A stretch of 64,000 nucleotides of DNA, from NCBI GenBank assembly GCA_011523655.1, contig WTGH01000039.1, positions 62,001 through 126,000 on the forward strand, read 5' to 3'. A program made the translations under genes and the position numbers. Under the pieces are notes generated by a model. It had not been told where the DNA came from. It was given only the letters and a program-made list of their open reading frames with translations, and searched no databases. The DNA comes from Rhodospirillaceae bacterium (GTDB lineage Bacteria; Pseudomonadota; Alphaproteobacteria; Bin65). Shown here piece by piece: positions 46,483 through 51,141 of the stretch (the first letter of the stretch is position 1; the number at the start of each line of letters is the position of its first letter).

Positions 46483-46899
46483 ATGTCCCTGAAAGACAGC
46501 AAGACCGAACAGAATCTCAAGGACGCGTTCGCCGGCGAAAGCCAGGCCAACCGCCGATACCTGTATTTCGCCCAGAAGGCCGATGTCGAAGGCTACAACG
46601 ACGTCGCCGCCGTGTTCCGCTCGACCGCCGAGGGCGAGACCGGCCACGCCCACGGCCATCTGGCGTACCTCGAAGAGACCGGCGATCCGGCGACCGGCGA
46701 GCCGATCGGCGACACCGAGAACAACCTGAAGGCTGCTATCGCCGGCGAGACCCACGAATATACCGACATGTATCCGGGCATGGCCCGCACCGCCCGCGAC
46801 GAGGGGTTCGACGAGATCGCTGACTGGTTCGAGACCTTGGCGAAAGCCGAAAGAAGCCACGCCGGCCGCTTCCAGAAGGCGCTCGACGAGATCGCCTGA
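46483..46899 (+). CDS. Rubrerythrin-like diiron protein without rubredoxin domain
   Basis: Ferritin-like diiron peroxidase of 138 aa. The four-helix bundle carries [16 protein letters not shown] (first Glu), [12 protein letters not shown] (ExxH), [13 protein letters not shown] and [11 protein letters not shown] (second ExxH). The C-terminal rubredoxin domain of classic rubrerythrin is absent and there is no cysteine, so electrons must come from a separate donor. A strong GAGAGGAGAG site precedes ATG 46483. The Fe-S protein gene 108 bp downstream is the probable redox partner, and the Irr-like regulator is upstream. Confidence 0.93.
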
Positions 46900-46944: not shown

Positions 46945-47007
46945 GTCCCCGGTCCGGCCCGCGCCTTGCGCGCTTCCCGCCGAATCCCGACATCCGAAAC
47001 AGGAGCC

Positions 47008-48342
47008 ATGACCGAAGGCAGCCTGGAAGCCCCCGTCCGCCATGCCATCCCGTGGCAGGACGAGGCCTACTACGACGAAGCGGCCCTCGACGCCGAGCTG
47101 CGCCGGGTCTTTGACGTCTGTCACGGCTGCCGGCTCTGCTTCAACCTGTGCGATTCCTTCCCGACCCTGTTCGACCTGATCGACGCGGCGGGCGACGCCG
47201 AACTGGACGGTGTCGACAACGCAGACTTCCGGAAGGTCGCCGACGGCTGCACGCTCTGCGACATGTGCTTCATGACGAAGTGTCCCTACGTGCCGCCGCA
47301 CGAGTTCGACCTCGATTTTCCCCATCTCATGCTGCGCTACCGGGCGGTCGAGAACCGCAACGGTCGCCGCGGGTTCCGGGAGCGGCAACTTACGCGGACC
47401 GATCGCAACAACCGGCTGGGCCGCGCCGCATCCGGCCTCGCCAACTGGGCGACGCAACGCGGCAACCGCCTGACCCGGCCGGCCCTCGAGGCGGTCGCCG
47501 GCGTGCATCGGGACGCCGCCCTGCCGGCTTTCGCGCCCCGGAGCTTGGAGCAACGCGCCGCCGCGGAAACGCCGGAAGTCGACCGGGATGCGCCGGCGTA
47601 CGGCCGCAAGGCGGCGATCTACGCGACCTGCTACGGCAACGGCAACAACCCGGAAATCGGCATCGCCCTGCTCAAGGTGCTGGCGCGCAACGGCGTCGAG
47701 ACCGAGATCGTCTATCCCGGCTGCTGCGGCATGCCCCAGATCGAGCAGGGCGACCTGAAGGCCGTCGCTGCCGGCGCCGCGCGGACGGCCGCCGCGTTCC
47801 GGCCGTGGATCGACCGGGGCTACGCCATCGTGGCGACGGTCTCCTCCTGCGCCCTGATGCTGAAATTCGAATGGCCCCTGCTGCTGCCGGACAATGAGGA
47901 CGTCCGGTTGCTCTCCGAAAACTGCTTCGACGCGGCGCAGTATGTCGTCGACATCGCGAAGACAGAGGGACTGGCCGAGGGTCTGGAGCCGCTGGACGGC
48001 GGCGTGACCCTGCATGTCGCGTGCCACGCTCGGGCACAGAATATGGGCGTGAAAGCCGCCGAACTGCTGCGCCTGATTCCCGGAACCAAGCCGAAGATCC
48101 TGTCGCGCTGTTCGGGCCACGGCGGCTCGTGGGGCGTGATGAAGGACAATTTCGAAACGGGGATGAAGGTCGGCAAACCGGTCATGCGCGACGCCGCAAA
48201 GGCGGGCAACCCGTACATTGCGTCGGAGTGCCCGCTCGCCGCAGCGCATATCCTGCAGGGCATGGAGCGGATCGACGGCGCCGCGGTGCCCGACCGTGCG
48301 CCCCACCCGATCGAACTGTTCGCCAGGGCCTACGGATACTAG
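47008..48342 (+). CDS. Heterodisulfide reductase-related Fe-S protein (GlpC/HdrD-like)
   Basis: Electron-transfer protein of 444 aa. Two [4Fe-4S] ferredoxin motifs, [11 protein letters not shown] and [13 protein letters not shown] (residues about 38-48 and 78-90), precede two CCG-type domains, recognisable at [14 protein letters not shown] and at [12 protein letters not shown] with SRCSGHGG. In the second site CxG replaces the usual CCG. Start ATG 47008, AGGAG six bases before. In other proteobacteria this protein travels with rubrerythrin and a DUF3501 protein; DUF3501 is not found here. A role in supplying electrons to the diiron protein is inferred. Confidence 0.88.
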
Positions 48343-48377
48343 GCGTTTGCGCGCCAGGGCCGGCATGTCCGGCATAA

Positions 48378-48396
48378 ATGTTAATTTCTTTAACAT
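48378..48396. promoter_or_regulatory. Palindrome ATGTTAA-N5-TTAACAT (downstream copy)
   Basis: ATGTTAA (48378-48384), TTTCT, TTAACAT (48390-48396). Same arms and spacer length as the site at 49919-49937 over the TetR start. It lies between the convergent 3' ends of the Fe-S protein and aminotransferase genes, an unusual place for an operator. Confidence 0.7.
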
Positions 48397-48442
48397 ATAC
48401 CGTTCCACCGAAACGCATGGCCGCCGGCCCGGCAGGGACCGG

Positions 48443-49777
48443 TCACTCTGCCGGAGCGGTGTCCAGCAGATGGCCGTGGCGGGTGAGGAATTCGTCGACG
48501 GCCTCGATCAGTCCGGTACAGTCGGGCCCGGCGATGGCGAGCGAAAGCGTGATGTAGCCGCGCCGGGTCGTAAAGAAGCCCTTGTCGATCAGGTCGAGAT
48601 GCAGGAGCTGGCGCAGGCGCGGATCCCGCGGCGCGATATCGCGGATGGAGCGGATCGGCGCGCGCTGCAGGTGCAGGTTCATCAGCGAGCCCAGTCCGGT
48701 GGCCCGGAACGGTACGCTGTGCCGGGCGGCAAGTTCGTTCAGGGAGGCGCGCAAGGCATCGCCGGCGTCGTTGAGCGCAGCCTGCATCGGCGCGGTAAAG
48801 ACATTCTCCAGGCCCGCGGCGCCGGCGGTCAGCATGAACACGTTGTTGTTGAAGGTGCCGTGGTGGACGAAGGACTCCGGCCGGGCGGGGTCGTAGACCT
48901 TCATGATCTCCGCGGGACCGCCGAAAGCGCCGCAGGAGAAGCCGCCGCCGATGAACTTCCCGAGCGTGGTCATGTCCGGAACGATGCCGAGCTGCCCCTG
49001 GCGCCCGCCCGGCGCAAGCCGCGAGGTCATCACCTCGTCGAAGATCAGCAGGACGCCGTGGGCGCTGCACGCCTCCCGCAACGCCCCGAGAAAATCGGCC
49101 GAAGCCGGAATCGCGCCGGACGCGCCCTGGAGCGGCTCGACCAGAACCGCGGCAAGCCGGTGCGCATTCTCCCGGATCAGGCGCTTCGCCTCTTCCGGAT
49201 CGTTGTAGGGTGCGATCAGGAAGGGGAAGGGCACGGCGATCGGCGCCGCCTCCCGGCCGAAGTAGACGGTGCCGCCATGGTAGCCGCCCTCGAACACCAT
49301 GATCGAATCCCTGCCGGTCACCGCGCGGGCGGTGACCAGCGCCATCAGGTTGGCCTCGGTGCCGGAGGTGGTGAAGCGGATCCGCTCGATGGACGGAAAT
49401 TGCGCGCACAGCAATTCGGCAAGCCGCGCTTCGTAGGGGGTCGTCGAACCATAGGCCATCCCGCGGTCCAGCGCCTCCATCACCGCCGCGCGGATCGCCG
49501 GATGCGAGTGGCCGTAGAGGCCGGCGGAGAAGTCTCCGACGAAATCGGTATAGGTATGGCCGTCGACATCGGTCAGCGTTGCGCCGGCCGCGGTCTCGAT
49601 CGCGAGCGGGAAGGGCGCATAGAACATGCCGGTGCGCGTGTTGCCGCCGGGCAAGCTCTTGCGCGCGCGTTCGTAGTGCGCCCGGCTGGCGGGATTGGCG
49701 GCCTCGTAGCGCGCCGTCACTGCGTCGACCGCGCGCTCCAGATCGGGGTTCCGGCCGCCTGTCCCGGGATTTGCCAT
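48443..49777 (-). CDS. Class III aminotransferase (glutamate-1-semialdehyde aminomutase-like)
   Basis: PLP enzyme of 444 aa. SLPGGNTRTGMFYAPFPLAIE and DVDGHTYTDFVGDFSAGLYGHSHP are the HemL-like N-terminal pattern. PLP contacts are SGTEANLMAL, GGYHGGT, FDEVMTSRLAPGG and the Schiff-base Lys in TTLGKFIGGGFSCGAFGG. The last includes a GSF/GAF-type change relative to true HemL, and the protein is more like catabolic or biosynthetic aminotransferases in this superfamily than tetrapyrrole-forming GSA mutase. Substrate unknown. Divergent from a TetR gene and flanked at both ends by an identical-type palindrome, so probably regulated by that repressor. Confidence 0.85.
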   Translation of the reverse strand: MANPGTGGRNPDLERAVDAVTARYEAANPASRAHYERARKSLPGGNTRTGMFYAPFPLAIETAAGATLTDVDGHTYTDFVGDFSAGLYGHSHPAIRAAVMEALDRGMAYGSTTPYEARLAELLCAQFPSIERIRFTTSGTEANLMALVTARAVTGRDSIMVFEGGYHGGTVYFGREAAPIAVPFPFLIAPYNDPEEAKRLIRENAHRLAAVLVEPLQGASGAIPASADFLGALREACSAHGVLLIFDEVMTSRLAPGGRQGQLGIVPDMTTLGKFIGGGFSCGAFGGPAEIMKVYDPARPESFVHHGTFNNNVFMLTAGAAGLENVFTAPMQAALNDAGDALRASLNELAARHSVPFRATGLGSLMNLHLQRAPIRSIRDIAPRDPRLRQLLHLDLIDKGFFTTRRGYITLSLAIAGPDCTGLIEAVDEFLTRHGHLLDTAPAE

Positions 49778-49918
49778 CGCGCCATGCTCCGCCGCCGAAC
49801 GAGCGGCGGACGATAGCCGGCCCGACGGAGACGCGGCAAGGCCGGCGCGACGCGGGACCGGCCGGGCCCGGTTGCTCCCGGAATTTTCCGGCAGCGGGAC
49901 TTGGCAAGCGCTACGGTT

Positions 49919-49937
49919 ATGTTAAATATATTAACAT
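49919..49937. promoter_or_regulatory. Palindrome ATGTTAA-N5-TTAACAT over the TetR start
   Basis: ATGTTAA (49919-49925), ATATA, TTAACAT (49931-49937); the right arm contains the TetR ATG at 49936. A TTGGCA -35 box (49901-49906) with a 17-bp spacer would place -10 at 49924-49929 and the transcript start at the ATG, so the TetR mRNA may be leaderless and self-repressed. The site also lies in the divergent promoter region of the aminotransferase. Confidence 0.75.
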
Positions 49938-50571
49938 GGTAGAAAGCAAACGAAAGAACCGGGCCAGCGGGTTGCGCAAGAGCGGCTATCACCATGGCAA
50001 CCTGAAAGAAGCGCTGGTCTCGGCGGCGCGCGTGCTGATCCTGGAGAAGGGCCCGCACGGCTTTTCGCTGATCGAGGCCGCGCGTCTGGCCGGCGTCAGC
50101 CCGGCCGCGCCCTACCGGCATTTCAGGGACCGGGAAGCGCTGCTGGCCGAGGTGGCGCGGCGCGGCTACGCCAAATTCTCCGACAGTCTGGAAAAAGCCT
50201 GGGCCGGCGGCGATCCGGACCGGCTGACCGCGTTCCGGCGCCTGGGCCACGCCTATCTCGATTTCGCCCTGAACGAACGGGCCTACTATGCCGCCATGTT
50301 CGAGGCCGAACTGCCGCCCGACGGCGACCCGGCCTTTCATGACGCGGCCGACCGCGCCTACCGCACCCTTTCCGCGGTGACGGAGGGGCTGAAGGGCGAC
50401 GATCCGGCCGGACAGTCCGTTCCGCCGGAAGCGGTGTTCTTCCATATCTGGTCGCTCGCCCACGGCGCGGCGACGCTGGGCCGGAGCGGCGGCGCGCCGG
50501 CCCTGTCGCGCCACCGAATGCTCGACCTGGGCGTCGAGATCTACCTGAAAGGCCTGGGCGTCACCGCGTAA
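49936..50571 (+). CDS. TetR family regulator (WHG-domain type)
   Basis: Repressor-type regulator of 211 aa. After a basic N-terminus, GYHHGNLKEALVSAARVLILEKG and FSLIEAARLAGVSPAAPYRHFRDREALLAEVA form the DNA-binding domain of the HHGNL subfamily. The C-terminal part has the WHG-type ending (HIWSLAHGAATL). I use ATG 49936, inside the palindrome. Longer frames upstream are antisense to the aminotransferase. Divergent neighbours of such regulators are commonly their targets. Confidence 0.9.
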   Translation: MVESKRKNRASGLRKSGYHHGNLKEALVSAARVLILEKGPHGFSLIEAARLAGVSPAAPYRHFRDREALLAEVARRGYAKFSDSLEKAWAGGDPDRLTAFRRLGHAYLDFALNERAYYAAMFEAELPPDGDPAFHDAADRAYRTLSAVTEGLKGDDPAGQSVPPEAVFFHIWSLAHGAATLGRSGGAPALSRHRMLDLGVEIYLKGLGVTA

Positions 50572-50691
50572 TGCGGCGTCGGAAAGCCGCCCGCAAGATT
50601 TTTTCGACGGACTTCTTGTATCCGTGCGTTCGATCCCCATCTATGTAAAGTCGTTTTACATTGACGGCAAAACCAACCGAGGAGGACTTCA

Positions 50692-51141
50692 ATGACCGCA
50701 GCATCGATGGCCCGGGAAAATCCCGCCCGCCACAGCCGCGAGTGGACCGGACCCAGCCTGCCGAAACCGGCATGGATTGCGATCATGGTCCTGGGATTCA
50801 TCGTGTTCTGGCCGATCGGCCTCGCGATTCTGGGTTTCCTGCTGTTCACTGGCCGGCTCGGCAGCTGCGCCGATTCCTGCGACTGGGTGAGCATGAAGAG
50901 CAGGATGCGCCGGGGCCCGTCCACCGGCAACGCCGCCTTCGACGAGTATCGCGAGGAAACCCTACGCCGGCTGGACGAGGAACGCCGCGAGTTCGCCATG
51001 TTCATGGACCGGCTGAGGCGCGCCAAGGACCAGGCCGAGTTCGACCAGTTCATGGCCGAACGCAACGGCGGCTTTGCCGGCGGCGGGTCGAACGGCAACG
51101 GCAATGGCGACGGCCCGAACGGCAAGCCGGCCGCGTCCTGA
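50692..51141 (+). CDS. DUF2852 family membrane protein
   Basis: Protein of 149 aa with one or two close membrane spans (residues about 27-53, PAWIAIMVLGFIVFWPIGLAILGFLLF). It has the highly conserved cytoplasmic motif GNAAFDEYREETLRRLDEE followed by FAMFMDRLRRAKDQAEFDQFMAER. A Gly/Asn-rich tail ends it. DUF2852 is a mostly alphaproteobacterial family of unknown function. GAGGAGG lies six bases before ATG 50692. Followed by a strong terminator. Confidence 0.92.
   Translation: MTAASMARENPARHSREWTGPSLPKPAWIAIMVLGFIVFWPIGLAILGFLLFTGRLGSCADSCDWVSMKSRMRRGPSTGNAAFDEYREETLRRLDEERREFAMFMDRLRRAKDQAEFDQFMAERNGGFAGGGSNGNGNGDGPNGKPAAS

Follow-up and report, generated by a model that had tools for sequence, protein, structure and literature searches.

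Palindromic sites at a TetR–DUF2852 locus of a Rhodospirillaceae bacterium: probable TetR operators and a probable promoterless copy beside an aminotransferase gene

Why should one palindrome stand at both ends of an aminotransferase gene, at one end over the start codon of a TetR-family regulator and at the other between two convergent 3' ends, where no promoter is expected? The question is raised by a stretch of 64,000 nucleotides from a Rhodospirillaceae bacterium (GCA_011523655.1, contig WTGH01000039.1, positions 62,001 to 126,000 of the forward strand), the whole of which is referred to here as the window. An earlier note on this DNA had assigned both palindromes to the adjacent WHG-type TetR protein and had taken the aminotransferase as its target. 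The sites were examined in the window, in the genome, in seven genomes of the genus, and in orthologous loci across the Alphaproteobacteria.

Palindromes in the window and in the genome

The elements of the locus are listed below in window coordinates.

46483–46899, rubrerythrin gene
46966–48342, + strand, gene for a GlpC-like iron-sulfur protein
48343–48442, intergenic region between the 3' ends of the glpC-like (+) and aminotransferase (−) genes, containing the 3' palindrome
48360–48365, + strand, CCGGCA, possible relict −35 element, spaced like the TTGGCA of tetR (flank similarity weakly significant)
48378–48396, the 3' palindrome, ATGTTAATTTCTTTAACAT, probably a duplicate of the TetR operator (pattern match; kept in G001, G002 and G004, absent from G005)
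48419–49855, probable inserted unit, delimited by its DNA similarity to loci that have the aminotransferase without tetR or palindrome (blastn, 78–82%)
48443–49777, − strand, class-III aminotransferase gene, glutamate-1-semialdehyde-aminomutase-like
49811–49839, − strand, conserved promoter-like block of the aminotransferase, TTGCCG-17-CTATCG (alignment of 11 loci)
49901–49906, + strand, TTGGCA, candidate −35 element for tetR, 18 bp ahead of the palindrome (TTGGCA in G000–G005, TTGGAA in G006)
49919–49937, predicted operator of tetR, ATGTTAAATATATTAACAT, overlapping its start codon (pattern match, orthologue conservation)
49936–50571, + strand, tetR, regulator with TetR_N and TetR_C_33 (WHG) domains
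50643–50661, third predicted operator, in the upstream region of DUF2852 (position conserved across the class)
50692–51141, + strand, gene for a small membrane-type DUF2852 protein, the presumed conserved TetR target

The motif ATGTTAA-N5-TTAACAT was located at 48378–48396 and 49919–49937, exactly where the earlier note had placed it, each time as two perfect 7-bp arms around a 5-bp spacer (TTTCT and ATATA, respectively). Two exact matches were found in the 4.27-Mb genome and none to a reversed control. In addition, a third related site with two mismatches, ATGTAAAGTCGTTTTACAT at 50643–50661, was detected that the note did not contain. With up to three mismatches allowed, shuffled versions of the window gave a mean of 0.12 matches, compared with the three found. 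When one position per arm was loosened (ATGTNAAN5TTNACAT), three matches were obtained genome-wide, all at this locus. The positions of the two perfect palindromes relative to the genes also agreed with the note. The second overlaps the ATG of tetR (49936–49938), and the first lies between the convergent ends of the glpC-like gene (48342, +) and the aminotransferase gene (48443, −). By contrast, the note's placing of the second palindrome over the divergent promoter of the aminotransferase was not supported; the conserved promoter-like block lies at ~49811–49839, ~80 bp from the operator.

The TetR protein and its conserved neighbor

The TetR protein passed the Pfam gathering scores for TetR_N (38.5 bits; cut-off, 24) and TetR_C_33 (51.3 bits; cut-off, 26.8). 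It reached no curated cut-off of the named regulators in NCBIfam (SACE_7040, MtrR, BetI, and FasR); the best matches, SACE_7040-type, MtrR, and FasR, scored 36, 27, and 26 bits, where 250, 280, and 330 are required. The similarity to these three was weak and chiefly over the DNA-binding half. The solved TetR structure 3on2, a probable transcriptional regulator, was similar over residues 16–187 (E = 5.6e-19). Each of the seven genomes of the genus has an in-frame ATG of tetR that overlaps the end of the palindrome, so the start of tetR is probably correctly placed there. The tetR transcript may then be leaderless.

A palindromic site at the promoter of tetR was kept in its orthologues. In 36 orthologous loci across the class, which include the seven congeners and hence are not all independent, the DUF2852 gene adjoined the TetR orthologue in 34. 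Sites of the palindrome type, matching 11 or 12 of the 12 core motif positions, were present at the start or promoter of tetR in 31 loci and between tetR and DUF2852 in 34. Shuffled regions from 22 loci reached a score of 11 once in 4400 near the tetR start and never in 4400 between the two genes. Furthermore, the motif tracked TetR in 61 relatives, being found in 12 of 15 genomes with tetR and in 4 of 46 without it (Fisher P = 4e-7). Because the orthologues carry the palindrome both where tetR starts and ahead of DUF2852, these sites are very probably operators of the neighboring WHG-type TetR, and on this point the proposal of the earlier note was well founded.

In genome G032, the tetR homologue has no adjoining DUF2852 gene, and no site was found beside it. 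The only two motif matches in G032 are found immediately before DUF2852, 58 bp from each other (L130, 2530–2606), which suggests that the sites go with the target gene. Together with the TetR–DUF2852 linkage and the co-occurrence of motif and regulator, the G032 sites point to DUF2852, and not the aminotransferase, as the conserved target. The conserved regulon would thus consist of tetR itself and DUF2852, both presumably repressed, which corrects a plausible target assignment. DUF2852 is an uncharacterized protein that is widespread among Alphaproteobacteria; in the literature searched it came up in only two papers, once in each, within an expression or proteomics result, and no link between TetR and DUF2852 was found there. 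Searches on the TetR/WHG family and on operator roadblocks likewise returned nothing relevant.

The module with a predicted operator at both genes was seen in the window and in L028–L040 and L108–L129. Between tetR and DUF2852, the site is often made up of two overlapping dyads offset by 6 bp, for example ATGTGAATGTAAGTAACATTTACAT (L036, L037, L038, L039, and L040), an arrangement that suggests two TetR dimers side by side.

The aminotransferase gene and the 3' palindrome

The aminotransferase gene was found at this locus in five of the seven genomes of the genus. In the other two, G003 and G006, tetR comes immediately after glpC, a single palindrome lies between the two genes, and tetR, DUF2852, and the sites are kept. 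The nearest relatives of the aminotransferase outside the genus (L064–L070; 75–80% identity) are located elsewhere, and no tetR, DUF2852, or palindrome was present in the DNA examined at these loci. DNA similarity to loci of this type covers 48419–49855, entirely between the two palindromes. The block TTGCCG-17-CTATCG is common, with slight changes, to 11 loci, 7 of which have neither tetR nor operator, and the operator at 49919 sits ~80 bp upstream of the aminotransferase −35. The aminotransferase gene thus seems to be a later arrival that brought its own promoter, whose block palindrome-free relatives also have. A palindrome serving as an operator of the aminotransferase was also considered and rejected, as it is not kept wherever the gene occurs (none in L064–L070; 3' site missing from G005). 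In L069 and L070, ORFs upstream of the aminotransferase resemble, by eye, subunits of molybdenum hydroxylases, and a small conserved ORF begins just downstream of the gene in all seven of L064–L070.

The 3' palindrome was present with perfect arms in four of the five congeners that carry the aminotransferase (G000, G001, G002, and G004) and was missing from G005, where the gap between glpC and the aminotransferase gene is shorter. Thus the conservation at orthologous loci to which the earlier note had looked was found in G001, G002, and G004 but not in G005, which has the gene pair without the palindrome. The distance between the two palindromes was 1539–1551 bp in all four species carrying both. 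A hexamer 18 bp before the 3' palindrome, at the same offset as at tetR, reads TTGGCA in G001, CTGGCA in G002 and G004, and CCGGCA in the window. The spacers of the tetR copy were TA-rich (ATATA, ATACA, and CTATA), whereas those of the 3' copy were not (TTTCT, TCTCT, and ATTCT), and without a TA-rich core a tetR-like promoter is unlikely at the 3' site. A scan for sigma-70-like promoters found none at the 3' palindrome; the same scan also missed the presumed tetR promoter. The near flanks of the 3' copy resembled those of the G003 tetR site (P of about 0.01–0.04), and their similarity to the tetR site of the same genome was not significant. For homology between the 3' copy and the tetR promoter outside the palindrome, these comparisons are no more than suggestive.

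In the four species, all 14 arm columns of the 3' palindrome were invariant, compared with 57 of 79 ungapped flank columns (Fisher P = 0.016, with the gap in the G002 alignment placed by hand). Blocks beside the palindrome are as invariant as the arms, and selection on the 3' operator is therefore only possible. One such block, GTTCCACCGAAA at 48402–48413, is invariant in the four species with the site.

A tree built from six genes at the locus, for which the outgroup was a distant one, placed G003 among the aminotransferase carriers and allowed several inner arrangements. A tree in which G003 branches before the carriers was disfavored by the AU test (P = 0.0185) and was not excluded by the SH test. 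The simplest history would be insertion of the gene with duplication of the operator region, after which G005 lost the 3' site and G003 the gene.

Readings of the locus and comparison with known systems

Taken jointly, TetR operators, a conserved tetR/DUF2852 circuit, an inserted aminotransferase gene, and a duplicated, promoterless 3' operator make up the account that we consider reasonably probable. TetR would repress its own gene at the start site as well as the next gene, DUF2852. The aminotransferase gene, bringing a promoter of its own, would have been inserted between glpC and tetR. The 3' palindrome would be a further copy of the tetR operator that probably arose, together with part of the tetR promoter, by duplication during this insertion and is now left without a promoter between two convergent 3' ends. 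TetR could probably still bind there, as an auxiliary site or as a block to read-through from glpC, with a minor effect at most, because G005 manages without the site. In G003, with its single site and without the aminotransferase, the gene was probably lost again, perhaps when the two palindrome copies recombined.

Several other readings were weighed against this account. The 3' operator may work, either because bound TetR blocks transcription from glpC into the antisense strand of the aminotransferase, or as an auxiliary operator that concentrates TetR locally or forms a loop with the tetR site at a distance of 1.5 kb. Perfect arms in four species despite differences in 22 of the 79 flank columns, the similar spacing of the two sites in all four, and the lack of a predicted terminator-like site downstream of glpC on the + strand all speak for such a role; nevertheless, G005 has the gene pair without the site, the aminotransferase lies outside the conserved regulon, and the conservation signal is modest, with neighboring blocks as invariant, so we regard it as rather unlikely. 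Against the favored account stand the weak similarity of the 3' and tetR copies outside the palindrome and the invariant arms, which hint at selection that a pure relic could do without. It is doubtful that the 3' palindrome was recruited after the insertion as a selected, promoterless operator acting as a roadblock or looping anchor.

Divergent control, in which TetR represses the aminotransferase from 49919–49937, has the gene orientation and the upstream position of the operator on its side, but we consider it improbable. The promoter block of the gene stands apart from the operator and is common to seven relatives lacking both operator and tetR, and G003 and G006 keep tetR and two conserved sites without the aminotransferase. 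The target proposed by the earlier note does not hold against this distribution. Least credible is that the 3' palindrome forms part of a bidirectional terminator instead of a protein-binding site. Its position between convergent genes and a possible 7-bp A+T-rich hairpin would allow this, but the same 19-bp motif forms the tetR operator and occurs nowhere else in the genome, and the fold energies of the weak A+T stem were near those of shuffles (z = −0.2 to −1.7). An intrinsic terminator was rejected, as the palindrome has an A+T stem and not a G+C-rich stem with a T run; the one terminator-like match nearby (− strand, 48415–48401) was at chance level.

The favored account of a duplicated operator implies that insertion of a gene into the promoter region of a regulator can leave an operator where no promoter exists. 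Among TetR-family repressors, those of the TetR/tetA, AcrR, and MtrR type are known to be autoregulated and to have a target gene beside them. Like these, the protein described here combines TetR_N with a TetR C-terminal domain, has a predicted palindromic operator over its own start region, and has a second predicted operator before an adjacent, seemingly membrane-borne gene. Unlike in these systems, the presumed target, DUF2852, lies downstream in the same direction and has a predicted operator of its own.
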